Assembly (NCBI GenBank): GCA_037833965.1
Contig: AP031352.1
Location: forward strand, 10,768,501 to 10,832,500
Direction of reading: 5' to 3'
Source: Marchantia polymorpha subsp. ruderalis
Lineage: Eukaryota > Streptophyta > Marchantiopsida > Marchantiales > Marchantiaceae
DNA length: 64,000 nt
Part shown: piece by piece, positions 7,945 through 56,600 of the stretch
How positions within the stretch are numbered: position 1 is the stretch's first letter
Layout: each line of letters begins with the position of its first letter
Position numbers and translations under genes: made by a program
Notes under the pieces: generated by a model
What the model was told of the DNA's origin: nothing
Seen by the model: only the letters and a program-made list of their open reading frames with translations
Database searches by the model: none

Positions 7945-10900
7945 TGTGATTTTGATTTGAGATAGAATGCATAAACAACAAGAGTCACACAATGAACGAA
8001 GTAGATATGAGATCGATGAAAGAAAACATATGTAACAACACATAAATAGCTTCAATGATGAAAATGTATTGATAATTTTACTTCACATTATTTTTTAAAA
8101 TTACTGCAACCAATATTGATTAGCATTGACTAACAATAAAAAGTAAGTTATATTTAACTGAATTTCAAATTTTACACCAACATAATTTTACAACAACACA
8201 CAAGTAACGATAATTAATGAAAAATAAGATGTTTGGAGATTTAATAAGCAATTTATGTAATATAATAAATAATCTCACTTCTAATTATTGATTTCAAAAA
8301 ATTCACAATAAATTCATGTATATTATACTCACATTGTCAAATATATGATTCAAACTTTCAAACATAATGTTCATGTAAACTTTATATTTATTCTTATAGA
8401 ATATAATCGTAATAAATCAAAAAGATTTTCAACCAATACTAATACAATAAATAGACCAACTATTAGTGAAGTTGATCTAATAAAAATATTTTTTTTAAAA
8501 ATGTATTATCAAGATCTTAATTAATTCTCAAGTAAAACAATATCTTCTTTGATTTCTTTTATTTTATTTTTAAATAAAAAACAGAAATAAATTAAAACTT
8601 TAATTGAAAAAAAATTTAGCAATCACAAGACAAAATTTTGCAGTTAAATTTTTCTAATTGTGGGAATATTATTTGAAATTACTGCAACTTGAAATTTTAA
8701 AAAAAATTAACAAACAATGATATTCTAAGATCGATGTACAATAAAAACATTATGCAAATATTCCATAAATATACGGTGTTCAAACATATGAAAGTCAAAA
8801 TCTGAAAACTTTTTATTTTTTAAATTATCAAAAAAGTATAGAAATCTATATATCTTCATGTTCAAAAAAATCTTATTATTAGTATATACAAACAACCAAA
8901 ATATCAGGATTTTTAAAAAAATTCTTGTTAATGTTTATTTCATCAAGATAAAATATATATATATATATATAATTCAAATTAATCATAAAATTTAAAATTT
9001 AAATTAATAAATTAAATTATTTTTCAAAATGATATCATGTAAAAATACATTTTTTATACTTATTGTCATTTTAAAATCATAAACATATCTATGATTGTTA
9101 TTTTTAATTTTTAAATACACTAAAAATAAAATAAAATTTTGTACCGAATGATTTTTTGATTGAAGATAAAACTAAACTAAATACGAAATAAATAATACAA
9201 TAAAAAACTGAATGAAAAATCTGATTGGATTCAAACCATCATTTTCTGAAGTTTTTGATCATCAACTTTGTAAAAACAAAATTCGATCTATTAGGTATCT
9301 TTGTAAGCAAGTAATCCCATATAAAATATATTAAATTTTGATGATTTAAAATATTGATTGACTCCCAGGTATTATTCTTATCTAATGCAGCTATTTTTGC
9401 ATTTTTTCTATCTAGTTTAACTTTTTAAAACTTTTATCAAATCATCATCAAGTGATATTATGTTCTATTTTAAAGTCAAGCATAACATAAATATTTCTTG
9501 GTTTAATCATATCAGTTACTTTGCGAAAAAAATTGTATATCACAATAAAAAATTCATTATTTTTCAAATTGATGATTTTGCTTCATGTTACATCTCTACA
9601 TTTTTCAAAATTTTTCAACATCCTCAAACTCAATTTAAAATTATGATCTCAACCTTAAGAAAGTATCTTTTCTTTGATAACAATTTTTGTGTTTCATTAT
9701 TTATACTGACAGAATTAATCTCAGTTTTAATAGTATGCAAATAATATTTTTATAGATTTACAGATTGTATCTGGGGATTTGTATGAGTTGTTTACAAGTT
9801 TACGAGTTTTAACTTTTATTTCTTTGCTTGACGTTCTAAAGTTACCTAACATTCATCTCAAATAGCCATCAACTTACATAATATCACAAGTAATGTTTCA
9901 TATTACTTTGAAATTAAAACAACACATTCTTGAAGATAAGATCAGGATTATATGATCTGTTTTGTAATAAGAATATTTGTATTATAATTAGAGAATTAAA
10001 AAATTTCACAATTTTTTAATTTTAAAGATGTCATCATATAAAAAATTAAATAAGAACCAAAGAGAACATAAAAATCAATTGCAGTGTTGAACATTTTCAC
10101 CAAAATGTGATAAATTTTATGAGCTCAACTCATGCTCCAAGAGCGTTCGATTGAGTTCTTAAAAAAAAGTCTATATATATAAGCAAGCTATTCAATCTTA
10201 AGAACGACATATGTCATATTTATGAACCAACATTATCTAATTGCAAAGTTCTGAATGTCTAATCATTATGTGGACTTAACTCATACTTCTTATTTCTTGA
10301 AAGTGATAAAAATCTGATACAACTGATGTAGGATTTGAATGTATAAAAAAATATTATTTATTATTGATGAAAATATGACTTGAAAAAAAAATTCAACTGA
10401 TGGGAGAAAATAAAGTGCTATCTCATAAATCACTATGTATAAATTTGAAAATTTATTTGAAACCAAGATCTGAAATATCAAAATCAATTCAAGGCTGCTG
10501 TAATTTTGCATAATGGTCAAAAAAATCATTTTAAATAGATTAAATTGTAGAAATTAATTGGATAAATGCAAAGCAAATTTTTCTTTCAATTCAACTCAAT
10601 CATTAATATGATTGAGTTTTGAATATCAGAGTCATCAATCTTCTTTCTAAAGGTTTTATATAACCTTTTCACAAATAATATTGTACTCTTGTTTGAATAT
10701 CTGTCCATGTTTGACTTTAGCATGTCAGCTCGCTTAGTCATGAAGCAAAGTACAAATATTATTCATGATCATCTAATGAATATTATTTATGAATATGTTT
10801 TATTCATTATCAGTCAACTGAACAAGAATTTTCAATTCAATTGATAATTCACAATTTAAAAATTTACTCATAACTATCAAAATTGAGTAACTTGATATTC

Positions 10901-13000
10901 GATAACAAGTTTTCAAAAATATAATTTTAATTTTAATTTTTAATTAATATTAACAAAAAAATACATTTATTGAATTCATCTTTGTAATAATGAGTCGCAA
11001 AAAGCGTATTGTAGCAACATAGAACTTAGTTTTCATCAAGCAAATTCTTTTCATCTTCTTCAGTGTTATAACTACCTTGAATGTTCATGGAAATTCACTA
11101 CAAAAATGTATTATTTACTTTCAAACCTTTAGAAGTGCTAAGAAACTTGTCAAGACAATGATACTCATACATTGAGTATACTTTTTTTCAAATGAAAAAG
11201 AACGTTGTATTACATAACTCTCTTGTTTGTTACAGCTGTTTCAGTCATAATCAACTTTGCGCATGGCTAAGATTTTTTCCCCTTTTGATAACTTGTTAAA
11301 AAATATTAAAGAGATATTTGTGACAAAAGTTTATCAAGAAAATAATGGTTGGTCTCATCTACGTCATCATCAGAATTAGCTTCATAGACAATATAGACGA
11401 CTAGGCACCAGATGGTGGAAAACCTAGTTATTGAGGTATAATGTGATTCCGAATTTAGCCTCAATGTGTCAAAAATCCAAGCTGCTTCCTGAAGCTAAGG
11501 TTATCAACAAGCTCTAGTCAGCAAGGATATTTCCTTAACCGTCTCACCATTAGCTCTTCTTCAGCCAGAATGTGCTCAAAATATGCTCCTTGCCTCGCTC
11601 CAACAGAGTTCAAAGGAGTAAGCAAATAATATATATCAAGCATATTCAACGAAGGAATTAAATTATATGTCTCACTTGGCAACCAGCATTTATGCATAAA
11701 GATACAACAAGTTTCAGAAACTTACTATCTTACAGTTTTTATTATCAAAAAGTAAGTGATTCACTTGATCAAGGCTATAAACACACCGGTATCTTTATAC
11801 ATGACATCTAATGTGTCAAAGAGAGGTTACATTAGATTTCTTAGTTGAAATGACAGTACGAATGTAACTAACCTTAAGTAAACTAACAGGAGTTATAAAA
11901 AACCTGAGTTGAATATTTTTGTGAATCCAATTAGCCTGGATGGCTAAGTATAAATGCCATATATCTGAAATAAATCCAACAAGTGGATAACAAGCATCAC
12001 CAGAGAGTATGTCAATCGTCCTTTGACTCACAAGACTCACATATTATAATTCATCTACTACTGAGGAAAACACATAACCTGCTAACGCCAAAGCAATATA
12101 CTAATATTTTATGGTGTACCATGCATCTTGAGATGATTTTTTTAATTCAAATTATCCTCTAACTATAATACTGGAAATTTTCTTATCAATGCGGTGATAG
12201 TAGAAGAAAAAAATAATGTCAATTGTGAAAAGAACATACTAAAGGAATGCAGGAGCATACAGTCCTCTTTTCCTCATACTTCTGCTTCAATATCCTACAC
12301 TATTGCAATCGAGCGGAATCAACATTGTCATGTCTCCGTACAGACTACTCTTACGATGCAGTTCAATTAACTACAAAGAATCTTAACTGTTAAGTGTCAT
12401 CTTACTAATTACATTACGTATAGTAAGTACTGGACACAAAAATCACATTGACCTCGTGCCCACTTCTTCAAAAAGACCAACATGTCTGCCCTCATCATGT
12501 TTCGAAATGCGCGAGAGATATTACAATATAAATGTATACATGAATAGTTTAAAATATGATATTTTAGAATATCATAAAACTGAACTTGATTATAATCACT
12601 ATTACTATACTATAAGTATACTTGGTACAATCGTATACATCTTTGCAGCTTCTATAAATGGACATTGACCCATGAAGAGACATTGAACATGATTTACGAA
12701 GGAGAAAAGGTCTAGGTGACAATTTAGCAATATTGAACTTGGACATTTCATCATGAATCTACTCTCACATGTAAACATTATGCTTTGATATCTGACCTCA
12801 CATGTGGAAATGTGAAGTATTAAAAGCCTGAAATCTAACAAGGATCCGAACTTTTTAGGCCGATATCTATAACTTTTCAACTAGCTGGCAACATTTCCAA
12901 TCATGAAAATGGACTAATTGGAACCCATATGATAAAACCCACATGTGTGACTCCACTTACGATACTATAAATAAAAATCTAACTTATCCCAATACATTTC
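7945..13000. other. AT-rich intergenic block
   Basis: This block is very AT-rich with long A and T tracts and a (TA)n run at about 8953-8970. Open frames are short and rich in Ile, Phe, Asn and Lys, as expected by chance at this composition. I see no gene, tRNA or intact element. It is probably eroded transposon sequence. Confidence 0.5.
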
Positions 13001-23547: not shown

Positions 23548-26500
23548 TCAGATGACGTCATCTAAAAGTGCTTCTATCTCATCAACTTCCTCTTCTGGAA
23601 CTCCCTCTGAGACATGTCCTGAGTTCTGCACTCTGCTCAAGAATGACGCCGCCTCCTCTTGTGTTACATCACTGTCACCACATTACGCACTCGAAACGAT
23701 CAGACAAGAAGGCTCAAAAGACCTGATTCTATTCAGGAAATCATCCGACCAAGGGCCAATAGAAATTTCTAACAAAATCGCTTTCATACGTACCTGTCAG
23801 GTGTTTCGTCCTTGCTAATAAGGGTCAAGTTTTTAGCAGTAACCAATTCCCAGAAGTCATTTTGACGTTTACCCCTGCATCTGTTGGAGATTTCTTCCAG
23901 GAACGTATTGAAATCAGACGGCTCCTGCAATAAGAGTGGTTACACGGAAGGAATATGTCTCTTACATACATAAGGTTCAACACTCTACTATATAACAATA
24001 TCGGTCAGTGAAAGAAAGGCTCTTCTATAGACGGACAATATACGGACAAACGTATCAATATACGGACAATTCCTACAAAATAAAGGACGTGAATCGAGAA
24101 CTCGGAGGAAGTCAGTATTTCTTCGGCGTTTGTTGGACTTTGATATCTTCTCCTTCTTTTAAATGAAGATAAGTAAGGTTATACAACTACAAGGGGATAT
24201 ATGAAGCAGCAGCACGTCATAAACCACAAGGACTTAAAAGAGGAGGAATCAAACCTAATCCACTATGAGGTCGCATCAGAAAGAATTAACACAGTCTGGA
24301 GTAAAGCTGTGAAACAATAATGGACATCGCAGAAGCCAAATAGGTCTGGACTCGAACGTACTTGCAGTATAGACGAGAATTAAATGCAATGTGCGCTTTA
24401 AGTTCCCACGGGAGACGCCGTAAGAGGCCAGTAACCATCACCGACAGCTGAATGGCAAACATCAATTTGCCATCACACAGCCCTACCTCAGTGTGCAGGG
24501 TACAAAGATCTTATTTTCGAAAACACTGAATCGTTCATTTCACCAACTCTGTTAGTAAACTGCACTTACTGCAGCTAACACACAATCCAGAACTCGATCC
24601 TTGCTAGCACTGTCAGTTGAAAGTTCCACACTCATATAACCAAGAACGTACTCTGCTGTATCAATCCACAAGGTCTCATCATTTACACCAGTGTCGCAAG
24701 AGCCAACTTCTAACTCGAAAGGGCGGAACTATAGTGATACATAACTGTGCACACTAGGTCAGGTACCGAAGATAAACTAGAGCACTAAATGATTTGAGAT
24801 TTGTGAAGGCATGGATGAAATGTAGGTTCCATTCTCCAAAAAAGTACATAAATGAATGTGAAGAAGAACAACAAAAGTGGAAACAGGGAGGACTTACAGG
24901 GCTAAGAAGGTGGAGATTAGATCCCATTGAACAACGCAGCATGTTTCCTATGAGACTTCAATCAACACCTAGTACTTCTCATCTGGCCCAAATGCAGGAA
25001 CTACAGGACTTCTTTGAGTAGACTCTCGCCACAAGGACTTGTTGATGTGAAGAAATAAGTATTTCCTCATTATCAAAACTAACAGATGGAAATTAGATCT
25101 CATTGAACAACCCAGCATGTTGCCTAGGAGACTTCAATCAATACCTAGTGCTTCTCATCTTGCCCAAGGTCAGGAACTTCAGGACTTCTTTAAGTGAACT
25201 CTCGCCACAAGGACTTGTTGATGTGTAGAAACAAGTAGTTCCTCAAAATTAAAACTAGCAGAAGGAAATTTTGGAGGCCTATAATACTGGTAATGGTTCT
25301 ATGCAATATTAATGCAAAACAAACCCTTCTGCTGTGAGACCGTGTTTATTTTCGCTACGGAGATCTTGAACTTGCAGACTTTCTGGGACTAGATACGAAT
25401 GTTACTTGAACGCAAAGAGAGGCATGCAACCTCCAACCAGGACACAAGAACGTTATCTATTATTCCGCTTAGACCCGTCGCAATCATGTTTCTTACCTCT
25501 TGAATTACGCAGCCTCGCCGCAGAGCAATAAGACAGGTCACAGCCTTCTCATATGTATTCCCATTATAAGCGGAGTTGAGAAGATCGGTTATAATCTTTT
25601 TCATCCCTTTGATCGCTTTTGTTACCCACTGATCGCTGTCTCGTCGTGCAAGCAGAGCTTCAAAATCTTCAACAGGATTCAAACTTCCAACTTGCTCAAC
25701 TTTCTTGCCAGTGAGGAACTCAAACGTCAGTGGTTTTCCGTCCTCTATCTGCAGAAGGTCCTCCCCAGGTAAAGCAGCTTCATTTTCTCCTAATCTGTCC
25801 TTCCAGAATTTCCGGCCTCCCTTTTCCGTCTGCAATATAACAGATACAACATATTTTGAATACATCTTGGCCTTACAGACTAAATACAGGAGACAAAACT
25901 TCAAAAAATGATGAAACTAAATGTAATAAAACTAAAAACTTTTACTGGATTCATGCCACTCTATCATAACTTTCCTGAGAACGAACTCACTCATAATAGT
26001 TCGCTCATTGTAAATTCATCTTGCTATGATCTATATCACTTTACGCTTCCGTGCAGATGAGGCACATTCATCTTACACACCTGAGTACTTCGTATAAGTT
26101 GGAACTGTTCTTTGAAAGTCTGCAACATGAAGTCCACCTTTTGAATAAATCGTTCCTCGGGCTGAATGATGATTTGAAGTGCTTTATCCAGAGGTGGGAC
26201 AGCTGCCTCAGGATTCACTGACTTCAGATGAAGGAAGCTGTAAAACCGCTGCAACACCCAGAAAGATCACCATCGGGAGGTCTACGTGTTTTAAGCACTA
26301 GGTACTACACGTTTAAGTGCGGCAAGGAAGCATAAGAAAAGAGAACATATTCGTTTCAGTAATCAAGTTCCCACTAACTAGACGTGGCTTATGAGACTTG
26401 TCAGTTAGGATTAAAGCAAGAAGCACGATCGATTCTTCATTGTTTCTTCGTGCGGTTTACAACGAAAATCCAACGAATGAATCTCGACAAAAGCCTGCTC

Positions 26501-29500
26501 AGAGTCCACAATAGACCCGTACAAATATGACAACCTCAAGCCGAACCTAAGTTCTGAAAGTTGCTTGCACAGTGTGTGGTAGAGGGAGACCTTATACAAT
26601 GTGTTTTTTGGAGAGGTCCCCAAGACTTTAAGAGACCAAAGACACTGCCTTCACGATTACGAACAACTTATGCAGGCAAATCGAGTGAGCGAGGCCACAC
26701 TCTGCACTTAAGGCTTGCTGGAAAAATAATAGATGAACACCGAATCTAACAAGCTATATACTCAAAGAAACTTTAGCCAGAAAACACAACGTCAGATATT
26801 GTTAATAAACAACCAAAAAAACTCAGCAAGCAACAAGTTCCTCGTACAAAAGCAAAGCGGCCATGTCTTTACAATCAAATGATGTTACTCTGTTATAGCA
26901 ACTTGAAATGAGAAATATGCAGGAATTTTTATTCTTTCTTCAAAAAATAGAGCATTGTTCGTTCAGTGAAAAATTAAAAACGCCTTACAAGGCCCAGAAG
27001 GGCAGTATTAATTGAGATATGAGGTATAGTGCAAGCACGGAGGAACTTCTACAAACCTGCAATACGGGATTGACAGTTCTTTCTGGCATCAGAAACTCCT
27101 GTCCGGGATAGGGTACGAGGTCCATCATTTGGACTAACGCATCCGCCGCTTCTTGCTGCAATCTTGTTGGTTGCTGCGTGGAAGGACGGTCTTTGAAGGA
27201 GGCAAACGCAAATTCACGAAGGTCTTCTGAAAAAGGAATGTTGTTGAAGTAGAAGCAATCAGCCTAAAACACACGGTCGAAAGCAACTGTTAGCTAGACA
27301 GGCATCGCTCCATCACGGTTGGCAACAACTCACGCTTCAAGCAGCAGAAGAGCGGGGGTGCGCATTTGAACAAAGAGTCCAGTGTATTGAGTGAGCAAAG
27401 AAAGAAAACAAAAAGTTAAGAGTGATTTGAAGACTCACTACGGAGTCGTCACTGCCAAGGCAAGGTGTAAGAACTCCTAACGCAACATTAGCTTGGCCTG
27501 CTCTCCAAACACAACGAACAATTGCAACCTTGCCCTCAGCTTCCATCGCTCGAGCAAGACAGGAAATAGCAAGTGTAGACCTTGTGTTCCTTAGTTCGGG
27601 TACAAATACATTGGTCTCTTTCATAAAATAATGTCTGCACATACAAACATGTTGAGCCTTTTCTAAGCAATTTGTATCGCCAAATTATTTGCGGTACGCG
27701 ACTCACGGACTAGTTCTGAACTGGCCACCTGCATTCCAAAAACAGGATACCAAAACCCATGACTCACCTAGGAACATTTGACTTATCGGTGAAGCCAACC
27801 ACTTTCAATCCTTTCTCCGTCCTGAACTTCAGAGCTTCTTCTTCTTTCGACGAGATAGGAACGTATTGGGGACCATACTTATAAGCTTTAATTCGCTGTT
27901 CCGGAGCTATGCTAACATCCAGATCGACGGAGCTCTTGTATTCGATGTCGAATTTAACTTCATGAGTGGCAGTGGTGTCCAGGAGTGGTGCCTTGTCAGA
28001 GTAGATTCTCAATGTCGGCATTCTCTCCGAGCTAACCTTTTTGTAAACCCATACCTGCAAATCAGTCACCACCATTTAGAAATTACCAAAAGCTTCTTGA
28101 CCTAAAACCAGCGCTCGAAACACTAGATTGATCACTTGTGAATATCTCCTTTGCTCTTGCTTTAATCTTCCTGACACCTCTGCATGAAACCCCAGCGTGT
28201 AGTTGTTATGAGCCCGTTCTCTCCGAGCTGTTATCACATATATCTTCCTCGATATATAGCACTAGCTCGTTTCCCCTGACTATAGGTCAAAAAAACCTCA
28301 AAAAAGACAAATGTCTGCGATAAGGTAAAGTTCAACACGCGAGGTTGTCCCAGTAATCGCTTGGCTGCAAAATATGACGTACAGAAGCTAAATGAAACGG
28401 GTCGAACAGGCCACACCTTGATTGACATGTTTGGGGTGAGCTCCAAATCACCCCTGTAGAGTGTTGTTGGAGAAACTGATCTGGACTTGACGGCTCCTAG
28501 CAGGGTAGTGTAACTTTCCACGAGTACGAGGTCTCCCATGGTTCCATCAGCAAAACTTCTCAAAAGAAATTCGTTCTCTTGACTTGCTTTAGACTCCAGT
28601 GCGCCATTCTCCCCTTTAAGGCGAATAACAACGGCATCCAAGATTATATTGTGCATCTGCAGTTGATTACGAAGAAGTTCCACCTGCTCTGATTTGGTCC
28701 CTTCCTCAGGTTCCTTCACAGGAGATTCACCATCTGTGATAAGATAGATTCGCTTGTTGCCTTTGGATCCTGCTGCGCATTTTTTCACTATCAAGTCCAT
28801 AGCGACGACCATAGCATCCATAACTACCAGGTTGTTAAGATAGTCCAAAGGGTTTTCTCGTCAAAGTGAGAGACTTCCTATACAGCGCAATATGAGCAAA
28901 AACCGAAATACCAACATGCCAAGAAGGATACAATCACTAGTCCCATATTCCTTAGAGAACTGGTCCACAGCTTGGGCGAGTTCCTCCGAGACGACAGCGA
29001 TAGGCCTTAACACCACAATGTCCTCGTACCCCCCAAGTTCAGAACTGAGCTCATTGTCTGTATCTGTACGGGAAAATAAGGTACGATTTAGTGAAAGGGT
29101 AATGATGCTTACATCTCAAGGTTTAGGAAGGTAGGAATATATCGCTGTAAATCATCTGATTCACAGAACCTAGAGAACGCATTCGCATGCAATCACTTTT
29201 CAATTTAGTGTAACCAACATATTTTTCTCCTTCCTAGAGGTAACTCCGTCTCTCCTTCCTGCTAGGGGTTATCACTTAATGAGTGACTCCTGACATAGAT
29301 CTAACCAGTAAGAAGAAAATATGGTGAATTCCCTACATGCAAAGACTCTGATGCGGCTGCAGTTGACAACGGAAACCTGATTTGATATAAGAAGAAGGCT
29401 TCAACAATGAAGACGAGTCTAACGTACCATTGGCACCGAAAAACACTAATCCGACTTCATCGTGCTTATTGTGAACAATCTGCACATCACAGTTTTAGTT

Positions 29501-30852
29501 CAGCGATCAACGGTGTGGATCTTATCAGTTTCTATTTTTGCACAGATAGGTGTTACACGATAGTCAAGGTGGAAAATAGACTTGTAAAGCAGGGTTGAGT
29601 TTATGACTGACTACAAGTAGATACATCAAACAGATTACATATGAGGTATCACGGTGCATTAGGTGTCAGGTAACCTGAAGTGAAGTTCTGTAGAAGACCC
29701 CTTCTAAGAACAGTACAACTAGAACGGTTTTCCAAGCTTATGTATTGTTTCAAGCCTAGCTGTACCCCCCACTTTATGGACCCACGGTGGCCACCGAGTG
29801 ACCGCTAAAAGCAGACATAGACCGGATGTATAATACTTCGAACATGAGCGTTTTAGTCGCAATCAAAACAGGCACGAAGGCTTCTATTGACGTAAACACG
29901 CTGACCTGCTAGTTATATACGAAAGATAGATGAAAAACTATATCGAGGACAAGTAGATTTCATGACATGAATAGATGTCATTGGCTCTAAAAATGTTACG
30001 GAGAACGAAACAGCACAGGAACTCTTTCCTATAAATGTAGGGCCTTGACTCTTCTAAGTAAGCATAATACAGTGGAACGACGCACATACACAGCCACGGC
30101 TCCAAAGACAGTATCAAACTTTCGGAAATTATCGGACGAATCAACAAATCCCTACCTTCCTCTGTACGAGTGCTGAAATGGCCCTAGCTGCATAGTCCAG
30201 ATGAGGGTGCATGCTCGGTCCTATGTCCACCAAAAGGATTAAAGTCTCCTGCAATAGGATGAAACAGAAGAAAGATGATGTATTAAAAGAATGTATTTCC
30301 CAAGTACGACTGAGATTAACGACTTATAATGACTGTGCTCAAACAATTGGCAGAGAAGAAGCGCGTTTCCACTCGAAGTAGGGGTGTAAGCAATTTTGGT
30401 ACACCAGAATTTAGCAGCTGGTTCACTATATACTTGAAAAAGGTTCAACAAGACTAACCACTAATCTGCAATTTAATGACCTACAACGGTATGTGGGCTA
30501 GTGCCACAGAGAGTTATGCAATATAAAGTTTTGATCGAACTCCATGGACCAACCTGTTACACAAGAGTAGCTGATCACTAGACGCTAGTAAAGGCGCCGC
30601 AACTTTTGCAGATATTGGAACGAACAATGCTGCAAAGAGCACCCCCTATATATTTCACCTACTCTCACAAGTATCTGAAAAAGGTTGCATTGCAGTACTG
30701 TCCTATCGAGCTTAATTTCACGGACTCTGCACTAATTGGCATGAGGAAACTTTTAAGCATGATCACTATCTTCCAAAAATGTAATCCCACAACCGACATG
30801 TTCACGCTTAGAAAACGTAAAGCAAAACCAGACATACCTTGTTCCTCGCCAT
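23548..30852 (-). CDS. KU80 (XRCC5) DNA-end-binding protein, 12 exons, 714 aa
   Basis: KU80 pairs with KU70 in the nucleus to encircle broken DNA ends for non-homologous end joining and to protect telomeres. Coding exons, in transcript order, are 30838-30852, 30156-30248, 29428-29479, 28932-29063, 28417-28823, 27768-28054, 27439-27634, 27057-27263, 26081-26248, 25497-25829, 23794-23924 and 23548-23671. All junctions are GT-AG and phases chain without a break. Residues 6-230 form the vWA-like domain (ETLILLVDIGPSM; RIYLITDGESP). Residues 234-515 form the DNA-encircling core (KAYKYGPQYVPIS; VGFTDKSNVPRHYFMKETN; VAIVRCVWR; NPVLQRFY). Residues 520-630 are a helical arm (NPVEDFEALLARRD; LIALRRGCV). 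The C-terminal helical domain starts at EPSDFNTFLEEI. The start MARNK matches plant KU80 proteins. Length compares with about 680 in Arabidopsis. The protein ends EEEVDEIEALLDDVI, like the PIKK-recruiting tail of animal Ku80. Exon 5's 5' boundary is inferred from homology. Confidence 0.95.
24909..25263. repeat. Tandem duplication (~176-bp unit) in KU80 intron 10
   Basis: Two adjacent copies of about 176-180 bp lie within the largest KU80 intron. Shared landmarks include CATTGAACAAC, CAGCATGTT, GAGACTTCAATCAA, ACCTAGT, CTTCTCATCT and CTCTCGCCACAAGGACTTG. The copies differ at scattered positions. They carry no KU80-like coding sequence on the minus strand. This local duplication partly explains why intron 10 (23925-25496) is the longest. 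Confidence 0.85.
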
Positions 30853-33775: not shown

Positions 33776-36358
33776 CATGCCAATTTATTGTAGGATTTGA
33801 TCCTTCTATCCCATATTAATAAGATATAGGACGAATTTTTGACGCTAATATAGGATTATATAGGATCCTATTGAGGTAGGCAGTGATTAGAGTAGTACAC
33901 ATGGACACAGCGATGTTTTATTGCTTTCGATGGTCATTTGATATCAATAATTGTATTCTGGAGATCACGAAGCTGCTTGGAATGCATCACTCCCTCTAAT
34001 GCAAAGTCGGAAAGGTTTGAACAGTACTCGTTGTTGCGATAGTGAATCAGGGAGAAGTCTCCTTCGACTCGGAAAATGATAGGCATCACAGTGGCTAGAC
34101 CAGCAGCAAAGCTTTGAAGATCCCGAAAACGAAAACGGCCAAGTGCCCACGCCAAATCAAAGTCTTGATTGCATGAAGAATGGAGAGACCTTTCGAGATC
34201 CGGCTCTGTAGAGACACATTGTTTCAACTTTGCGTGTTGATCACAAATGCTTCGAATGATATTGTCGGCTTTGTCTGGAAAATGATTGACAAGTCTTTTC
34301 TTATGCTTTCGAACCAGCGCTATGAAATCACAGTGAGAAGTATCGACCAACTCCAATGGAAGGACAGGAGGGATCATCTCGGATTCCATGTGTGTGCTTT
34401 GGCGCCCCTTGATAATTGTGACGATACCGTTGAGAGCGGTGAGATACACAACAGCCAATGCATAGATGACTTCATTGTAATCCTTGGGTTGCAACCCTTC
34501 CTAGATTTTTTGAGCAGCACCCCTGTGCTGCGCACCAAAGTGTTCAATCCATTTGCATCAAGTGTGAATTGGGCCATTGTAGCAGCACCGTTTTAGATCG
34601 TCAGTCGATGATCTTCGCATGACATTTTCTCGTTTCTAATTGCTGTACACTGGGCCTGTATATTCAAGAGAAGCTTCGTGAGACCATTGTAATGCTTGGA
34701 CACAACAGCTGAGTCAATTTGTAATGGTGAAAGGTAGCATTGATCCGTTCAAAGAACTGCTTCTGGAGAACCATAGCCATCAGCCACCATTGACTACTCG
34801 GTGTCGGGGCAAACTGTTTCTTAATACAAAAAGATTGAATCCGCACACGATGGTTGAGCTGCCACTGTAAAACTTTTGACATTGACTTCCAATGAACGTT
34901 GATCCAGTAAGGACATTTGCTTCCCATACTCCGAATCAATGTTTCCTGCCTGCATTGGTATCCGACCAGAGTCGTCAACGTCTTCTCCAATGGGAAGTTC
35001 ACAAGATTCTGCATACTGACAATGGATGTCTTCACGATGATGTCGAGTTGATGAACGAGACATTAAATGCAATAGAGTGACCGAAACTATGCAACTGCGT
35101 CATTGAGTTGAGTCAAAAATCCTTGTATAGCGCCGTTCATGTTCGGTGCACCATCAGTAGACAATCCAATCAAACAACGGTCCCAATCCGAACAAAGTGC
35201 ATTCAACAAATAAGTCATAAATCCATACAGAGATTGACCAGAATGTGACTCATTGAACAAAGGAATAGCCAGCAAATGGAAGGAGAGAAGAGGCTTTCCT
35301 ATCTGAACTAAAGGTAATCGGATTCTGGTGTCAAGGTAAGCATTTCCGAATTCATCCGTGGAAGCATTAGAAGCATTCGAGAACGTTCACGAATTCCGCA
35401 TCAGATCGGAGAGCAGCTGTAATGCAATGGAACAAACAATTCGGCGTGTACATGAAACCTCTCCAGGACTCAGAGATTTCTACTTGCCAGCGGTTTCCAG
35501 CACAGTTAGATTGCAATCGATGACAGTAGATATCTGGTTAAATGACAACCCAGTCGCAAGCAACGACACCACGTAGTCAAATTCCATTGGCGCCGATATC
35601 ACAACATTGTATCGCTCAACAATCTTAGAACCATCGTCTTCAATGGAGAATACTGGTTTGAACACGTTCATTGCACGATCACCAGCAAGCTGATGATTCT
35701 CATCATTGAGATTATACAGCATTTCGCGAACAACAACCTCAACAATGTTCTTGTCAATATACATGATCCTATGACGGCCTTCAATGTTCATCCGCTTCTC
35801 AAAGAACACATACATTCTTGTTTGCTTGAAAAACAGTTTTAGAGGTTCAAGATCTGACTGCTTCGTCTTGAGCAAGACTGAATACTCGGCCCATTTCCCG
35901 GCATGCTGCTCCCTATGATGTTTCTAAATGTTATCCACGCAAAACTTCGTACAGTGCTGCGTCTTGGTAGTATTTTGATGCTTTCAAGCACATAGTTCCT
36001 CTTTCGTAGAAAGGGGCAATGCGCTTTCGTCATGAACTGCATTTGAATCTTCGCGGCCATAAATTTCACAGGAACATGCAAGTAGCGGATTTCATTGCAC
36101 CAGTATGCGCAAATTCTGTTGGCCTGAGTGCTAAATCGATGGAATATGAGTCACTCCACTTCTCACGAGCATCTTTAGATTGTTTCTTGGGCGGCATGTT
36201 GCTGAATTACGTTGAATTAATGAAGTTGTTCAATCCACAGAATATGACAAAGCGTAGGAATACCGCCACGCACTTTGTTTAATATAGGACGTCTTGGGGC
36301 AGTTAATATAGGATAATATCATATATTAACACAAAAAATCCTACATTAAAATGGCCTG
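33776..36358 (-). mobile_element. hAT-superfamily DNA transposon with perfect 8-bp TSD
   Basis: The ends are CATGCCAATTTATTGTAGG on the left and, read inward on the other strand, CAGGCCATTTTAATGTAGG. Apart from a few mismatches these are matching terminal inverted repeats. The 8-bp sequence GTCATCAT flanks both sides exactly (33768-33775 and 36359-36366), which fixes the boundaries and the superfamily. TATAGGA-type motifs recur in the subterminal regions of both ends (about 33833-33870 and 36285-36315). The 2583-bp interior encodes a broken minus-strand transposase. Confidence 0.85.
33934..36081 (-). pseudogene. Decayed hAT transposase
   Basis: A minus-strand transposase remnant is spread over several frames. 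The block LIGLSTDGAPNMNG (about 35125-35165) matches the catalytic-Asp region of hAT transposases (TDGAxNMxG). About 40 residues further along, after a stop, comes CLVHQLDIIVK (about 35040), the C-x-AHxLx-type block in which the usual Ala is Val. The last 186 codons (33934-34494) are open and end in an LRDLQNTIIDIK-like tail. Several in-frame stops and frame changes separate these parts, so the gene is dead. The DNA-binding N-terminus is not clear. Confidence 0.7.
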
Positions 36359-36366
36359 GTCATCAT

Positions 36367-38463
36367 GGATGTTCCCTGTGTCAGTGAGTTGGAATTACTA
36401 TTTTGAACAAGTACAACAAGGCTTTACAGAAGCAGCCGCATGAAAGTTAAGCTTCATAATATATTCGCTTAATTTATGTCTTCATAAAGTGAAATTGATT
36501 CGAGACATTTGCTCTCTTATGGGGGCAAAGATCTCATTGGCTTCCATCTAGCCAGTGCAATTCTCAAGCACCATTTCAGCTGTTCCTTTCCAGTAAAGCC
36601 ATGGTATACAATCTTTTATCTGTTATGAAATATTGTAGAGGTAAATTCTTCTCACCCTATTCCTTCACCCTTTCTTTCTCACCCTGCCCTATAAGTCTAA
36701 CGATATGTCTAAATATAAATCATAAATTATCAAACTTGAAAAGTCATGATGATTCAATATGCATAGCACATGTAAATGAATCTTCATAATAAGAATTTAA
36801 GATTTATCATCTTGGATATTATTGGATAAAAAAATTATTAGATTGTAAATAAATAAAAAATGAACATAGAATCATTTGCACTAAACTAATTGTATACAAA
36901 TAATCTTAATCTTCATTATTCTCATTCTCAGTTTAGCATTCATACAATTATACTTAAAGTTTAGTTTTATTTTATTTTATTATTCTGTTATATCAAAATA
37001 TTACTCTTTCAATCAAATCAAATCAAAGTAAAATGCATAATAATGCAATATGATACCTTACGCTATATATTTTATTCATATATTTTTTTTGAAAAGAAAA
37101 AAGTTAACAAGAAATATTCAATTTATCACTCATAGAGTGATCAAAATTTAAATGAACTGAATATGGTGGCATTCACTTCTTTCAATTCATATCATAATTA
37201 CATTACATTGAAATAAGCTTTATAATAGTGATTTGAGTGTATGTGTAATTGATATAAGTAAATTTCATATACTTTCATGGTCAGAAATTAATTTTTAATT
37301 TTAAAACAAGCATTCTTTAGAAAAATTTCAATTTTATGATTGATCACTTAAAAATATCAATTAAATATTACATTTAATAAAAAATGCATCTTTAATTTAA
37401 ATTCAAATATAATAAAAAATATGCATGAAAAATTTTGTTGAACTTAACTTCGGTTAAAGAGTAACGTTAGGTTTTAGCTAGATAGATCGTTAGTGTTGGA
37501 TATATATACACAAGTTATGTGTATTTCTAGACAGAATGTTCAATACAATCTCACAATGCACTTCCCAATGTGTGAACGTAGCCCCTCCCAAGTGTGAATC
37601 ACGTTATTTTTGTCTCTCGTGTTGGTGGTTTGGCTTGGCTTGAGTGTGTCAATGTGTTTCTCAGGTTTTATCGTAACAAATTCAAAATAATTTAGTAACC
37701 ATTCAAAAATATTTGCATATATAATTGCAATAAATCAAACTCAATAGAAGTAATTTTAATTTATAATTTGAATAAAAAATATGAAATATTTTCAAAACTA
37801 ACATATGATACAATGATAAAATTCAAATCAAAAAAATTTACATTAATATTATTTATCAAAAAAGGAGACATCTATGCGTATTTCGTATGTGAAAACTATA
37901 AAATGTAATCATTTTGAATAAATATTTTTTTTCACTTAAAAAAATTAATATAAAAAAATTAATGTAAATTGTAAAAGAAAAACTAACATCTCACTAATAT
38001 TTAATCTTTAGCTTGTACATTTTCAAATCAATCGAAAATTATATGTAATTAATAATCTAATTTTGCTTTGAAATCTAAACTATTTGTGAAGTTTCATGGA
38101 TATATATGTGTGAATGTTATATTTGGATTTACAATTTAAGTTTTCAATTAAAAATTGCAAGTTTAAAATATAATCATGATTACAAATTTTAATTATAATC
38201 AACTTTTGAAAAATAATTATCTTTTTATATTTATAGTAATTTTTTAAAAAACTTTAATCTTACAAAAAAATAAGAGTATTACCTAAAATAAAATTTATAA
38301 TTATGTGTGTAAAATAGAGACTTTTTAAAAAAATATATAAATAAAGTAAGCATTTAATTTAATTTTATCTCAATGTAATTAAGATTCCAAAATATATGCC
38401 TTTTTAAACTGAAAATAATATATATTTATTATTATTAATTTCATTAAAAATTATAAAACAGTA
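36367..38463. other. AT-rich intergenic DNA containing a solo LTR
   Basis: Very AT-rich DNA with no gene. It contains a solo Copia LTR at 37436-37678 and ends at the 5-bp target duplication of the full-length Copia element. Confidence 0.5.
37436..37678 (+). mobile_element. Solo LTR related to the downstream Copia element
   Basis: The sequence starts TGTTGAACTTAACTTCGG and ends TCGTAACA (TG...CA). Its layout parallels the LTRs of the full-length element 800 bp to the right: the GGTTAAaGAGTAAC block, a TATATA box, AATGTGTGAACGTAGCCC resembling CCGTGGACGTAGCCC, GTGAATCACGTTAT, and a final CGTTAACA-like end. No PBS, internal region or PPT is attached. The flanks AATTT and AATTC match at four of five positions, consistent with a decayed 5-bp target duplication. 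It is therefore a solo LTR left by LTR-LTR recombination, from a related but diverged family. Confidence 0.75.
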
Positions 38464-40015: not shown

Positions 40016-40322
40016 GACGTGATTATAGGTACTTCCATTCCTATAAGAGTTGCGAGGCAGAAGGAATAGACTCTGCAGAGTTCCCTACGTAGTTGTAGTT
40101 GGACGTGGTCAGCATCTTGTTGAACGTAGTAGACGACCACACTGTTAAGGTTTTGCACCTTTGTAGTTGGACGTGGTTGAAATCGAAAGAGGTCACTGTG
40201 AACATGGTCAGTTGTGGACGTAGTTAGCGAAAAAAAAAGGAAAAAAAAAAGGTTTAGTTTGGAGTTTAGGGTACACGCTCACGTGGTCGGCACATATGAG
40301 GTTAAAGCGCCATCACTTGTTG

Positions 40323-40435
40323 TCGCGGGTGACGGATACAATCGCGGGTAACAGATCTTTTTCAGTCGCGGGCGACGGTGGTCACGGGCGACAAGAGTCG
40401 CGGGTGAGGGATATAGTCGCGGGTGACAGACGTAA
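40323..40435 (+). repeat. Short TCGCGGGTGAC minisatellite before gag
   Basis: Six imperfect copies of TCGCGGGTGACGGA or TCGCGGGCGAC, spaced 16-24 bp apart, precede the gag start codon by about 40 bp. Confidence 0.8.
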
Positions 40436-40466
40436 AGTGCATCTTGACCATTTTCAGCAGTTGAAA

Positions 40467-41425
40467 ATGCACTTGAAGAACGAAATTGCCGTGACAACAA
40501 ACGGTATCTCTAGTTTTCGTCTAACTGAGATGACCTCGAAACAAGTTGCAGGAACAGTGTACAACATTCTTCCTCTTGATGGCCGATCCGATTACTTGCT
40601 TTGGGAAAAGCATGTGAAGGGCAAGTTGAGATCTATGGGTCTCGCTAATGTGCTTAAAGACAAACCAATGCACATTACCGACATTGATCGGAAGGATTCA
40701 CAAGAGCAAGCAGTCTACATTGTGATGGGTTATCTCGATCCTTCGGTTTTGAAGCAAGTTGAGGAGTATCCTGAGGTTACAGAGCTTTTTGATGCCCTAC
40801 AAAGACGGTTTCATCAGAAGTAAATCTCCCATGTGATGAATACCTACATGAGGCTATTGAGTTTCAAGATGAGGCCGGGCTCAAAAATTCAGATCATATT
40901 CACGCCTACGAAGATTTGTTGGTAGATCTTCAAAGTATGGGTGAGGAGCTTTCTGACATTAAGAAAACTATGCATCTACTTCACTCATTGGCTCCCTCCT
41001 GTCAGACACTATCAAAGATTCTACTCCATCGTGATAACAAGGCTGTAAGTTACAACGAGGTTGTAAGTGCTCTTCTGGCAGACGCAGTGGTACAAGAGAT
41101 GTTGTCATTCTCTCGCCCATTCACTTCAAGTACTGCACTTATTGTGATCCGGGGTCAGTCGCAACCATCGGGTCAAGGCATTCTGCAGCGTATAGGGTTC
41201 AAGCGGAAGAGATCGAGATCCCCTGAGCGTAGGAGAGTTCAGTTTCAGGTTCCATCCCCTAACAAGAGGAACTTGAAGAACTTGGTGTGTTGGAGATGTG
41301 GCAAGAATGGCCATATCAAGAAGTACTGTCGGATGCAAATAAGAGATGCGAATCTTCCTCAAGTGGCGAATGTTGCGGAGCATCTTCACTCTGAAGAGGA
41401 AGACGTGTTTACCGACGGTCTATGA
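40467..41425 (+). pseudogene. Copia gag (nucleocapsid), broken
   Basis: From MHLKNEIAVTTNG the frame runs through a Copia gag body (PLDGRSDYLLWEKHVKGKL; a VLKQVEEYPE region) to a stop at 40821. The body resumes in another frame at about 40850 (LLVDLQSMGEELSDIKKTMH) and continues to a CCHC zinc knuckle, CWRCGKNGHIKKYC, at 41288-41329 (CX2CX4HX4C). It ends at 41425. Gag packages element RNA in virus-like particles. The stop and frameshift prevent a full-length product. Confidence 0.9.
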
Positions 41426-41429
41426 TGCT

Positions 41430-42510
41430 AGAGGTATGCCCTCTGTAATTCACCAACAGTTATTGGTGATGTATGTATTTTAAATAGTGCTTGTTCTTAT
41501 CACATTTGCTACATTAGAGAGTTCTTCAATACTTTCTCAAGATCAAACGGGTCTGTTCTTATGAGTTATGACCAACCTTGTAAGATTGAGGGTGTTGGAT
41601 CTGTTAAAATCCGCATGTTTGATGGTGTAAATCAAACACTGACAAATGTTAGATTTATACTTAATATGAGAAAGAACTTGATCTCTCTTGGAGTGTTAGA
41701 CTCACACGGCTTATAGTGGAGCTCTAGGCATGGAGTATTAGATGTCAAATCTAGTGATAAGAAGGTTATACTTAAGGGTCATAAGCACAATAATCTGTAC
41801 TTATTAGAGGGCACCACAATTTGTGAAGAAGTCAACTTTACCAGATCTCGCAAAGAGATGTTTCATTTATGGCATTCTAGACTAGGCCATATGAGTGATA
41901 GGTACTTATGTCTTCTTGATGACAAGAAAGTGTTATCGGGTTTGGGTACACTTGACTTTGCATTTTGTGAACACTGCATCATGGGAAAACAACATAGGCG
42001 AGCTTTTAGTGTTGGAACTCATAATTCCAAGGAGATACTGGAGTATGTACATACTGACGTAAAGGGTCCATCTCCTACTGCCTCATACTCAAGAAAGTTC
42101 TACTATGTTTCATTTATAGATGATTACTCTAGGTATGTGTGGGTAAATTTTCTTACCCACAAGTCTAAGGTATTTTCAACCTTCAAAACTTGGCGCATTC
42201 AAGTTGAGAATCAGACTCGCAATAGTGTAAAATATTTACAATTAGATAATGGCGGCGAATATACTTCTGAGGAGTTTCAAAGGTATTGTACAGAGGAGGG
42301 GATTACTCGTCACTTCACGACAGTTTACACTCGCCAACAAAATGCTATTTCTGAAAGACTCAATAGGACAATGTTGGAAAAGATGCGGAGTATGCTAAGT
42401 TATCTGGTTTACCAAGAGAGTTTTGGGCCGAAGCCGTCAACACCGCAGTTTATCTGGTAAACCTCTCTCCTAGTGCAATCCAATTTTCCACACCGTTTGA
42501 ACTCAGGCAT
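41430..42510 (+). pseudogene. Copia protease and integrase, broken
   Basis: The protease active-site block reads LNSACSYH, where Copia proteases have an Asp-Ser-Gly-type LDSGCS/A motif. The catalytic Asp codon is Asn (AAT at 41483-41485). Downstream, a pre-integrase His/Cys region is clear: HLWHSRLGHMS followed by CEHCIMGKQ. The integrase core shows the DDE pattern: HTDVKG, LDNGGEY, then SERLNRT. An in-frame stop (LDSHGL-stop, about 41715) separates the protease from integrase. A frameshift near 42400 moves the tail (AVYLVNLSPSAIQFSTPFEL) into another frame. Confidence 0.88.
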
Positions 42511-43882
42511 AAACGGATGGCGGATTACAGCCGCTTGAAGGTTTTTGACTGTACTGCTTATCCTCTTACGCCTAAGAAGCACAGAACTAAGTTAGATCCT
42601 ACGTCCAAGAAATGTCGTTTTCTTGGATATGCTAGTGGAGTGAAAGGTTGCAGGCTATGGGATCCACTAGCACGTAATGTGATTGTTAGTCGAGATGTTT
42701 CTTTCAATGAGCTTGGCTTATTGAAAGAGGAGGAGAATTCTAAGACTCCTCGTACTAACAAGGGAAAATCTCCAGTCACGGATATCGCTGTGGGAGAGTT
42801 TGATCATTATATCACTAATGATCTGTCACAAGAAGAAGCACCGATTCATCAAGAATATGAGGAACTTGAGCGAATTATCACTGATGAGCCTATTGCAATA
42901 GTTTCAGAAAATAGAGATCAACCTGAAACGTCTACTAGGAGATCGCATCGTGCTAGTAGGGCTCCTGAAAGGTTTGGTGTGTGGGCAAATTCATCCATTC
43001 TAGAAGATTGTGACTTTGATATCGAAGATAGGGATGGTATAGCGTTGATTTTGAAAGAAGGTGAACCTTCTTCATACAGGGAAGCTCAAGCTTCGGTCAA
43101 TAAGCTTGAGTGTACAGCTGCTACGGAGCGGGAGATGGAATCCCTGATTGACAATAAGACTTGGGAGCTGGTTGAGCCTCCTACCAATCAAATGGTGATT
43201 GACTCCAATTGGGTGTACAAGCTGAAAGACAATCCAAGAGGAGACGAGGCAAAAATCTTCAAAGCTAGGTTGGTGGATAGAGGTTTCACCCAAGAGAAGG
43301 GCGTGGAGTACAACGAAGTTTTCTCACCGGTAGCTAAGTATGCTACAATTCGTCTGGTATGTGCACTGGCTGCGATATTTGATCTTGTTATGGATTAAAT
43401 GGATGTGATTACAGCTTTTCTCTATGGATATTTATAGGAGGAGATCTACATGAGATAACCTGTTGGTTTTGAGGTCAAAGGCAAAGAAAGGTTGGTTTGT
43501 AGATTATTGAAATCATTGTATGGATTGAAGCAAGCTCCTAGGCAGTGGAACATACGATTTGATCAGTTAATGAAGTCACAAGGATTTTTTTGGAGCGTGT
43601 ATGATCCTTGTGTTTACATGAAGAAGGTAAATGATGAGACGTTCTATCTCATCATTTTAGTACTCTACGTTAATGATATGCTCATATTGGCGAAAAACCA
43701 ATCCGATGTTGATGAATGCAAGATTAAGTTGAAGTCGCATTTAAGATGAAGGATATGGGGGAGTCAAAGAGAATATTAGGCATGGAGATACATAGAGATC
43801 ATGAGCAGAAGAAACTATGGTTGAGTCAAGGCAAGTATGTTCGTCGTATACTTGACAGTTTCAACATGATGGATTCCAAAGG
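42511..43882 (+). pseudogene. Copia reverse transcriptase, 5' part, broken
   Basis: The frame carries the integrase C-terminal GKSP-like linker, then RT: NKTWELVEPP, NWVYKLKDNPRG, KARLVDRGFTQEKGVEYNEVFSPV, then MDVITAFLYGYL with the first catalytic Asp, SLYGLKQAPRQW, and LYVNDMLI. The conserved YVDD box is YVND (Asn codon 43672-43674). In-frame stops lie at 43396-43398, 43435-43437 and 43456-43458. A 1-nt loss near 43741 shifts the frame before KDMGESKRILGMEIHRD. The hAT transposon then interrupts RT at 43891. Confidence 0.92.
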
Positions 43883-44143: not shown

Positions 44144-46341
44144 TTAATCATGTCGCTTCGCTATCTTCATGCTTGCGTTGTTGAACTGGAGTAACGACTG
44201 AAGCTCGCAGAGCGCCGAAACGGTGTCGTCATCTAAGCACGCACGGCGCTTGCTATTCAAGGCACTTGCTTTTGAGAAAGCGCTTTCACTTGGCACTGAA
44301 GTCGATGTGACACCCATGTAGTCTCGTGCCATGAATGCGATTTTGAGGAACAAAGCCTTGTTCACTTTGAACCACATGCAAACATTCCTAGATGTTTGAT
44401 CGAATGTCATCGGCTGGTGTTCGAATCATCGCTTGGCCTCATTCTCAAACTTTTCTGCAGTTGTTGATGATTGCGAGGCTGGCTGCGGTGCTTGCAACAA
44501 TTGAAGGAGGGAACTCATCGTGGATGTCGTGGCGGTTTTGTCCTGATGCATGGAACCACTTGCCCTTGCATCAGAGGCAAACTCGCGATTGTAGAGGGGC
44601 TCATAGTGGTCGTCCCACGCTGCGACAAGTTCCAGTTCGATCTCCGCTTGCCGAATCCCAATCCCGTTCATGAACGCCTTCGTTCGAGGATCCAGAGCGG
44701 TGGCAATTCTTGTGACGTTATTGCGCACCTTGCCATCGTATTCAGCAAGCTTTGCAACTACATGCTTCGCAAATTCAATAGTTCGTGTGGATCTGAAACC
44801 AGTGCTAGCCGCGATAGCGGCTTTCGCATGCTGAGTGCACATGTGGAACACCGGGATCGCCATTCCTAACGTCGGGTACTCCGATGCCGATAGCAAGACT
44901 GTGACGTCTTTGAATGGTTTTAGAAAGCTGGCAAAATCTTTCAGGGCGGACCACGATTCTTCTGCGATGTGTTTGATTAGGGTGTCGGTGGGTGCAATTG
45001 TAAACCCAGTAAAGCTGTCATGTCGCTCTCAAATATGTAGAAGGAGCTCCTATAACGGCTTGCGGATGTGCAGTATGCCTTGGACCATCTCCCATGTGCT
45101 GTTCCACCTAGTCTCAACATCCAGTTGTGGCAATGCCAGCTTTTCCAACTTCAGGGTTGATGCAACACTCTTCAGCGCTTCCATCAACTTTGGGGAATCA
45201 TTGATCTTCTTGAAGAGGTCTCGAAAGGTTCCGATAGCCACGTCCATGTGACTACTTCTTTTCAGTCCCTCCTTAACTGCAAGTTGCAGTGTATGCGCCA
45301 TGCACAAGAGCAGGAAAACTGAAGTACACAACTGCACGTCCTCGCTACGGTCGATGTCCGGGTTAGTGTCAGAGTTTGCGACTTTGGCAATCGAGCTCGA
45401 CAGGAAGTCTGCAATTGCTTCTCAGAGCATCAGATTGATGTGGTTCACCATCGACGTGTTGCTTGATGCATTGTCACCAGTGATAGACCACAGACCTGGA
45501 AGTAAAGATGGATCCATTTCTTTAACGGCCTTGATCAGGTGCACAGCAAGTCGTTCGCCCGTGTGTGGGTACAACACTCGAATAAAGACTATGATGCAAT
45601 GTCGCATGTCCCAATTGCTATCGATATAGTGGATCGTGACGACCATATAATATCGTTTCGCTACTGACGTCCACATGTCGGTTGTTAGGCCGAAGCGGCG
45701 CTTTTCCAAATCCTCCCGAAGCTTTGATCGCACTTTGTTTTTTGCATCATGCCAGCGTTTCAGGACTCTTGAACGAATGGTATTTCGCATAGAACCTCAT
45801 ACTCTTATCGAAGAGCCTCGCAAAACTGTCGAAAGTTGGCTTGCTCAACAACGGAGAAGGACTGGGCATGATTAACAATCCAATCGACCATCTTCTTGCC
45901 CGCGAACTCTTTGTCTGCTTTCGTGAAGCCATCATCTGCATGTTTGCGCTTCTGAGGTCTACTGGCTGCTTGATTGCCCGCGTGCCGCTCAAATCCATCG
46001 TAGTGATGCAGTTTAATTTGAACAGTTTTTGAGATCGTACTGGTGTAAACATCAGCGTGTTTTTGCTCTAAAAACCGTCGAAAGTTTGTGGTGCTCTTGT
46101 TCGTCCACTTTTGCACGATTTTCTTATCATGGCACAGCTTGCAAATGAAATGTTTCTTGTCAGCTGATGGCACAATGTGCAGAAACACATCCGAGACTTG
46201 TTTCTCGGATCCTGCGGCTGAAACACTATTGCTTGCGAACTCTAATTTGTGACCGTTGGGCTCAGCAGATTCAGAATCGCGTGGGACGTCATCGTCATTA
46301 CTGTCGATTTCAATTGGCATCTGATTGTTTTCACCGCTCAT
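44144..46341 (-). pseudogene. Ac-like hAT transposase with BED zinc finger, broken
   Basis: Starting at MSGENNQMPIEID, the N-terminal part has a BED-type zinc finger (FICKLC ... FRRFLEQKHADVY). After a stop at about 45805 and a frame change come the hAT catalytic blocks: LTTDMWTS, SITGDNASSN (catalytic Asp), MAHTLQLAVKEGL and DVETRWNSTWEM. A linker with TALDPRTKA follows. The C-terminal hAT dimerisation domain reads ARDYMGVTSTSVPSESAFSKA. In-frame stops separate these blocks (near 45420, 45048 and 44425), although the last four lie in one frame. The transposase would cut at the element ends, but this copy cannot make a full protein. Confidence 0.92.
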
Positions 46342-53689: not shown

Positions 53690-56600
53690 ATATTTCTACA
53701 AGATAGAATTGAAAGTATAACTTGATGTTTTGTTTTGGAGGAAGCTATCATGCTTGACATTGTTTTATGTTAGTGTTGTCGTTTGACACTAGTGGTCTGG
53801 CTTCAAGAGACATCACCACAGATATTGGAATCCAAATCTAATCATTTGTAACCATCAGATAACCCCCGAAACATTTGACGTCATGAATCGCAGTAGAGAT
53901 CATGAATGCCTTCTACGTATCATTGTGAGATCACAGAGATCCTTAAATGCAACCCACTGTCCAAATTTTACAAAACAAACATATGATCATGCAACAGTCA
54001 GATTATTAAAAAATTAGACTGCCAATCTCAACAGATTCTCCAAAAAAATACCTAGAAATTTTAATGTTTCGTAATGAGCTTATTTCATAGTAAAGAAGAG
54101 ATATATTGCTATTATGTGTATATCAATGTAGCGATAAAAAATAGTATTCGGATTTTACGGTGTCAAATATTTCGTGAATTTGATACAAATCCCATTTTTA
54201 TAAATCTCGCTATGATGATGTATTCTTCTATTTTTGTTATTCAAAGAATCAATTTTTGATATTATTTAGTTTGATAGAAATTTGTGTCAATTTTTCTTAA
54301 GATGAATTTTAATTTAAGCATTAGTTTCAATCAATCTTACATATTTTTGTTTTTTAAATCAATATTTTCTTTAATTATATCATGGAATTTGAGAAACGAA
54401 TTTTCTGGCATTAGTTTTTAAATTTTGAGAAATTAATTATTATGTGTTTCTAATATCTTTTTAGAAACGTGGTGATATTATTGAAAAATGGAAAATATAA
54501 ATTTCTTGATTTCTTATCTTAATTAGTGTCGAATTTAAGGTTGAATGAAAATGAATCTGCATGGTTGAACTAATTTTCAGAGCCAAATTTTTATCCAAAT
54601 TCAATCCAATATATAATTGAATATAATATAGTCTTTGCATTAGATTTTATTGATGGATGAAAGTTCAAAAAGCTATGTAAATAAGTGTTAAACTTGAATC
54701 TGACCTCAACAATTTCAGATTCAATAAAAATTTAAAATAGTAAAATCATATAATAATAAATAGCAAGAAAAATAAATTTAAATAAAGAACTATGAATAAA
54801 CTATTAATAATAAAATTTTGTTGAAATAAATATATTAAGTTAAATAATTTTTATATTGATATATATATGTATAATTAAAGAATAATATTATAATAAGATC
54901 ACTTCTATATCAATACATAATATTTATTTATTTATATTTATAATATATATTATACAATAATATGTTTATAAAATTTTTTATGAGTGCATGATTACATTTT
55001 TTTTTAGTAAAATTTCTTCATTTATCTTGCAAAACATTATATTGAAATCAATAATAAATTTCACAATATAATAAGCATTTTCTAAATTTATAATTACATC
55101 AACATAAAAGAATTCATTTTTATAACAATAGTAAATCTTTACTCAATGAAATATAAATACGTATATAAATCACATTTTTTTATAAATTAATGTTACAAAT
55201 ACCACACATTACAATTTTTTAAACTGAATCAATATATATACATCAAATCCTGTTGACTTTATACAGAAAACTTTCATAGCCAACACAAATATTATGTGCA
55301 TGGAGCAGATATGTAGATCATACCTATGGATACGTAAATATCACTTATGAAGACTATGTCCAGAGCAACCAAAGACTTTACATAAAATTGTAAGATTATG
55401 TTCAATAGAATTAATTGAAGCTTCCATATGTAATGACAAATTAATCCAAGCCTTGTAAAACCTACTTTTTTTTTTAGATGGCAACTTTGCCAGAATTGAT
55501 TTGGACAAAATGCCATATGTTGTAAAGATCACTTGCCACGGACTCAAGAAACACAAAAGGTTTCAACAAAAGAAAACTGTATTAAGAAACTGTATAAAAT
55601 TTTATTCTGTATAAAGAAAAATTGTTGACTTGAAATATATATTTATACAAATTACAACGTATTCCAACAGACTGAAAAGTTATATAATTCTTTCCTTCAT
55701 GAAAATAAGATTCAAGAAACCAATTGGAATTATAGTGTTTATGTGGAAGAAGATATGATTTATCCTTATTTTCCTTCCAAATGGTATTTTTTGAAAGTAA
55801 ATTTTACTAGTTCTCGCATGGATATATATATATTTTCATCCACTCTTGTAGAAACCATGCCATAAGTTTCATGAACGCTCAAGTTTTAGCATGTAGGTCA
55901 ACATACTATACTCCATAATTATCTTCATCCATAAATAAAGTGAAGTGTCGCTTTGGTTTAACATCTGATTGTATAAAAAGTTTTTCGATTATATGTTTGA
56001 GTAGATTTATATTTTTCTTAATGTTTTAATTTCTTAACCACTTGGCCCTTTCTACTATTGGATTGAAGAGTTACTAAAAATAATATATCACAAATACTAT
56101 TGGAATGTATCACAAAAAAGCGCAGATAACGACGGAAAAGACGAGATTGATTTTACATTGATTACATTTTAAACCAGTAAAGAATATTACTAAAGATTTG
56201 ACAAATATGATGAAGCCATAAAAAGAACACTACACGGGGGGAAATATGGAGATGGTTGGGAAGCGTTTAAAGGCTGGACGTAGAAATAACAATTTCTTCT
56301 CAAGATGTGTACGTCTAAGGTGAGTTTTGCCAAATGATCCGATTTGTTGCATTCGATTGATGTCATGGAGCAACCTAAAGCAAAAAAAGCTTGTTTCTAA
56401 CGACTTGAGGTGATATGAAATGATATGGTGTGAGAAGCGAGGAGTAGTTAACGTTGACTCATGCTCGAGGAGATAAGGCAAGGCAAGGCAAGGCAAGGGA
56501 GGGAGAGCAGAGCGAGAGACGACAAACAGAAAGATGTAGAGCCATGGTTGTGTGACCTATCATACCTCCCAGTACAGCTCTTCCAATGAATAAAAAGCAC

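Follow-up and report, generated by a model that had tools for sequence, protein, structure and literature searches.

Among the closest described counterparts of the liverwort KU80 tail considered here is the C-terminus of human Ku80 (XRCC5). In the account given in a 2021 review (PMC8549938), residues 725-731 of human Ku80 are helical on the NUC194 domain of DNA-PKcs in the long-range complex, and the likely tail contacts in human NUC194 are 1912-1923 and 1955-1970. The role of the human tail is debated. For example, one study reported that human Ku without the whole Ku80 C-terminus still recruited DNA-PKcs to DNA in vitro, and that the loss showed in kinase stimulation (PMC4433226). Among plants, the review describes the tail as conserved in non-flowering plants with DNA-PKcs, and flowering plants as being without the Ku80 tail and without DNA-PKcs; the legend to its Fig. 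6 includes Ku80 of the liverwort Marchantia polymorpha (PTQ30121.1) in the alignment. DNA-PKcs was reported in 2023 across green plants, with none in angiosperms (PMC10419180), and the main text of that paper has no mention of Ku80. In the open-licence literature, we found no paper with an experimental test of a plant Ku80 tail.

Here, we analyzed a window of 64,000 nucleotides (the whole stretch of DNA studied) from Marchantia polymorpha subsp. ruderalis, which contains a KU80 gene. We consider it very probable that this gene encodes an orthologous DNA-PKcs-engaging tail that was inherited from the common ancestor of eukaryotes possessing DNA-PK, and that the tail acts together with a DNA-PKcs whose gene is on the same chromosome. 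The published liverwort Ku80, PTQ30121.1, is another close described counterpart, and the alignment that includes it is said to show the tail kept (PMC8549938). The KU80 of the window may be the PTQ30121.1 gene or a close orthologue, the two being likened by description. The genome has one Aux/IAA locus, in keeping with a Marchantia-like liverwort; an ARF PB1 fragment compared with solved structures gave four matches above threshold, to IAA17, IAA4 and ARF5 proteins, none of them near-identical. The pairing of tail and DNA-PKcs is already in print for liverworts and other non-flowering plants, in a review that has Marchantia polymorpha in its alignment (PMC8549938, as above).

On the minus strand, the predicted KU80 gene spans 30852..23548 in 12 exons, from the ATG at 30852 to the TGA at 23548. 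Its 11 introns are all GT-AG, and joining the exons gives a single open frame of 714 aa. In this gene model, the start codon is in exon 1 (30838..30852) and the Ku_N/vWA region begins in exon 2 (30156..30248), as placed by Pfam domains, followed by exon 3 (29428..29479), exon 4 (28932..29063) and exon 5 (28417..28823). The Ku beta-barrel is carried by exon 6 (27768..28054) and exon 7 (27439..27634), where PF02735 matches at C3:10796261-10796560 and C3:10795894-10796136, respectively (C3 is the contig on which the window lies). Exon 8 (27057..27263) precedes exon 9 (26081..26248), which encodes the C-terminal arm with a weak Ku_C match of 21.7 bits, slightly under the cut-off of 23. The first and second halves of Ku_PK_bind are in exon 10 (25497..25829) and exon 11 (23794..23924), located by Pfam and by the genome profile search. 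Exon 12, read from 23671 to 23548, has an AG acceptor, is entered in phase 2 and ends in the TGA stop; it encodes a linker and the C-terminal tail EEEVDEIEALLDDVI, and is backed by the human alignment, the score controls and the structure model described below. The last exon proposed in the initial annotation (23548..23671) agrees with this model in its interval, acceptor and phase.

The domains of the predicted protein fit Ku80. Pfam places Ku_N (E=6.3e-13) and the Ku beta-barrel (E=9.8e-41), both above their cut-offs, in order with Ku_C. Ku_PK_bind, a domain absent from Ku70, is complete: it covers residues 570-686 and profile positions 1-120 of 120 (E=5.9e-37), which leaves 28 residues beyond it. 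When the genome was searched with the Ku_PK_bind profile, the sole matches were the two halves within this gene. A search of solved structures gave human Ku80, not Ku70, as the best match. From domain order and Ku_PK_bind, we therefore identify the predicted product as Ku80 (XRCC5).

The initial annotation had also supposed that the species may keep a DNA-PKcs-type kinase, and had proposed a genome search for a PRKDC orthologue. Profile searches over the full 241 Mb of this genome, in nine contigs, located one DNA-PKcs gene, on the chromosome that carries KU80. The DNA-PKcs signature PF08163 (NUC194/CC3) has a single match in the genome, at C3:28576828-28577970 (E=2.7e-53), and matches none of 14 control genomes, which are prokaryotes as far as they are named. 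The strongest PI3/PI4-kinase match, at C3:28569395-28570225, is on the same strand, ~7 kb downstream of the PF08163 match; other kinases of the PIKK family are also present in the genome. The long exon around the PF08163 match (1392 aa) contains CC1-2, CC3 and CC5 domains, and the exon of the kinase match (869 aa) contains the kinase domain PF00454 and FATC. The former scores 254 bits to human DNA-PKcs, and all six sequences listed are DNA-PKcs, with no other molecule among them. For the latter, human DNA-PKcs is the top match at 435 bits, followed by mTOR (158), ATR (146) and ATM (122). A separate kinase locus, C3:13858753-13859358, has ATR as its best match (252 bits, with 83 to DNA-PKcs), which indicates that the method tells PIKK kinases apart.

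The YRPD motif of this gene is split by an intron. An unspliced search of the genome for the YRxGxxPD pattern gave no match, as expected for such a motif, and YRTGELPD is read by joining two exon ends over a GT-AG intron (SYRTGELPDIEITHADILAP). The spliced YRTGELPDIEI fits the plant YRPD pattern given in PMC10419180, and Met-Arg replaces Tyr-Arg just before the motif (MMRSYRTGELPDIEI). In the 162 residues preceding YRPD (C3:28574496-28574981, coordinates computed from the ORF) there are 11 SQ/TQ sites, a number that none of 5000 shuffles reaches; such a stretch is what would be expected for an ABCDE-like autophosphorylation cluster. With NUC194/CC3, kinase plus FATC and YRxGxxPD all present in the predicted exons, we conclude that the genome encodes DNA-PKcs (PRKDC). 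Green-plant DNA-PKcs is described with the same Pfam domains (CC1-2, CC3, CC5, kinase, FATC) and with a plant-type YRPD pattern preceded by Met-Arg, and among the exons read here we found no departure from that description (PMC10419180).

The tail itself, EEEVDEIEALLDDVI, closes a longer C-terminal stretch of the joined-frame product that reads PEEEVDEIEALLDDVI. It has an acidic stretch followed by LLD and a hydrophobic end at the extreme C-terminus of the protein. As in human Ku80, where the tail comprises residues 720-732, it comes after Ku_PK_bind and a linker; LLD is identical in the two proteins, and both have the acidic stretch before it and the hydrophobic end after it. Compared with human DVDDLLDMI, EIEALLDDVI has a conservative E-I-E for D-V-D and Ala for one Asp, and one extra residue stands near the end (LLDDVI vs. 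LLDMI). The vertebrate-type layout that had been proposed for this tail held up, as a phmmer alignment to human Ku80 covers residues 224-711 and reaches the LLD. The label "animal-like", on the other hand, is misleading, and "ancestral" is the better word, because the tail is common to non-flowering plants with DNA-PKcs in the review's account (PMC8549938). The human tail is helical in the long-range complex. For the tail here, an AlphaFold single-sequence model of the 40 exon 12 residues, as an unbound peptide, predicts a helix at H26-39 (EEEVDEIEALLDDV), that is, the 14 residues preceding the terminal Ile (block pLDDT 81, mean pLDDT 76, pTM 0.32).

With the human tail sequence given in PMC8549938 (EEGGDVDDLLDMI) as the reference, the best ungapped BLOSUM62 score of the KU80 tail is 25. 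This score is reached in 4 of the 699 16-residue windows of KU80, and all four overlap the tail itself and contain its core. It is also reached by 10 of 4000 random 16-mers of KU80 composition and, when the tail itself is shuffled, by 122 of 4000 sequences, so that composition accounts for a good part of the score. The letters of the tail alone are thus moderate evidence, and the case for homology draws no less on the orthologous position. Much of the weight comes from where the tail sits, immediately behind Ku_PK_bind and a linker of roughly human length.

It could be argued from these shuffles, from the shortness of the motif and from the extra residue that the likeness is a chance acidic-hydrophobic end without docking function. 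Conservation of the supposed NUC194 docking groove is likewise modest: the likely human contact stretches are only partly kept in the plant NUC194, with 2 of 12 residues identical in 1912-1923 and 5 of 16 in 1955-1970, as counted by hand on a pairwise alignment in a gappy region. We nevertheless find chance improbable, given that the tail holds the orthologous position past a full Ku_PK_bind, that the human Ku80 alignment extends into it, that no other part of the protein among the 699 windows reaches the score, that the partner kinase is in the genome, and that the published alignment is described as having the motif conserved, including in the liverwort (PMC8549938, as above).

Another possibility is that the KU80 tail recruits ATM or ATR rather than DNA-PKcs. 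C-terminal motifs of NBS1 and ATRIP, which are related to the Ku80 tail, recruit ATM or ATR in animals, and the genome contains an ATR gene and other kinases of the family. This is highly unlikely in our view. DNA-PKcs, the partner of the Ku80 tail, is present in the genome, and because of this recruitment of ATM or ATR is not needed. In addition, the tail tracks DNA-PKcs: flowering plants are described as lacking both (PMC8549938), yet they keep ATM, as in Arabidopsis. Searches of the genome for the Nbs1_C and XLF families gave no match and the controls were equally silent, hence they have no bearing on either reading. Since the tail is kept in non-flowering plants with DNA-PKcs, with Marchantia listed among them, the most fitting interpretation is an ancestral tail that this plant has kept, and it looks to have been lost in flowering plants together with the kinase.

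If the tail engages DNA-PKcs, Ku70/80 would thread onto the broken DNA end, and the globular Ku_PK_bind and the flexible linker would deliver the acidic-hydrophobic helix at the end of KU80 to the NUC194 region of DNA-PKcs. This contact would then help place, activate or tether DNA-PKcs during end joining. We infer from the parts described above that KU80 binds DNA-PKcs via the tail and that this binding is of importance in the plant. The word "recruiting", which the initial annotation had used for the tail, may be too narrow, and "engaging, activating or tethering" is safer, because the human C-terminus was dispensable for recruitment in vitro in one study. The locus adds a clear genomic case to the published pattern in which the Ku80 tail and DNA-PKcs occur together. 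A plant with both partners allows DNA-PK to be studied in plants; Arabidopsis does not, as both the kinase and the tail were lost in flowering plants. In an expression time course of the moss Physcomitrella, upregulation at 24 h was reported for PRKDC, Ku70 and Ku80 alike (PMC8803787), which suggests a system open to genetic tests.

Intron 11 of KU80 is 122 nt long (23672-23793, minus strand). If it were retained, a stop would follow two codons past the donor region, and the protein would end in ...DETPDRYV without the tail. There is a slim chance that one KU80 gene could, via retention of intron 11, give both a tailed KU80 and a tail-less one like that of flowering plants; if true, retention could set the balance between two end-joining modes. 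That exon 12 is mis-modelled and the true end of KU80 lies elsewhere, for example at this early stop, is scarcely credible, since the sequence-based model has exact splice sites and the correct phase, and is homologous to human Ku80 both before and after the junction. The neighboring intron 10 holds two tandem 176-nt copies, 87% identical, at 24908-25259.

Elsewhere in the window, pieces of a Ty1/copia-type retrotransposon lie at 40296-43398 on the plus strand, where separate frames hold GAG-pre-integrase, integrase core and SH3-like domains and the beginning of a reverse transcriptase. No Pfam match was obtained for the first ORF of this region (40296-40823). At 44426-46341 on the minus strand is a hAT/Hermes-like transposon remnant with a weak match to the Hermes DNA-binding domain at 45805-46341, beside which the ORF at 44426-44896 has no Pfam match. 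Three strongly AT-rich blocks (8001-12000, 36001-38000 and 54001-56000) have 20-28% GC, compared with about 40-45% around them. A 528-aa ORF at 59540-61126 on the plus strand contains a dual-specificity phosphatase domain and is MKP-like, and a tRNA-Leu (AAG) at 1457-1539, also on the plus strand, is the one Rfam hit in the window to reach the gathering score.
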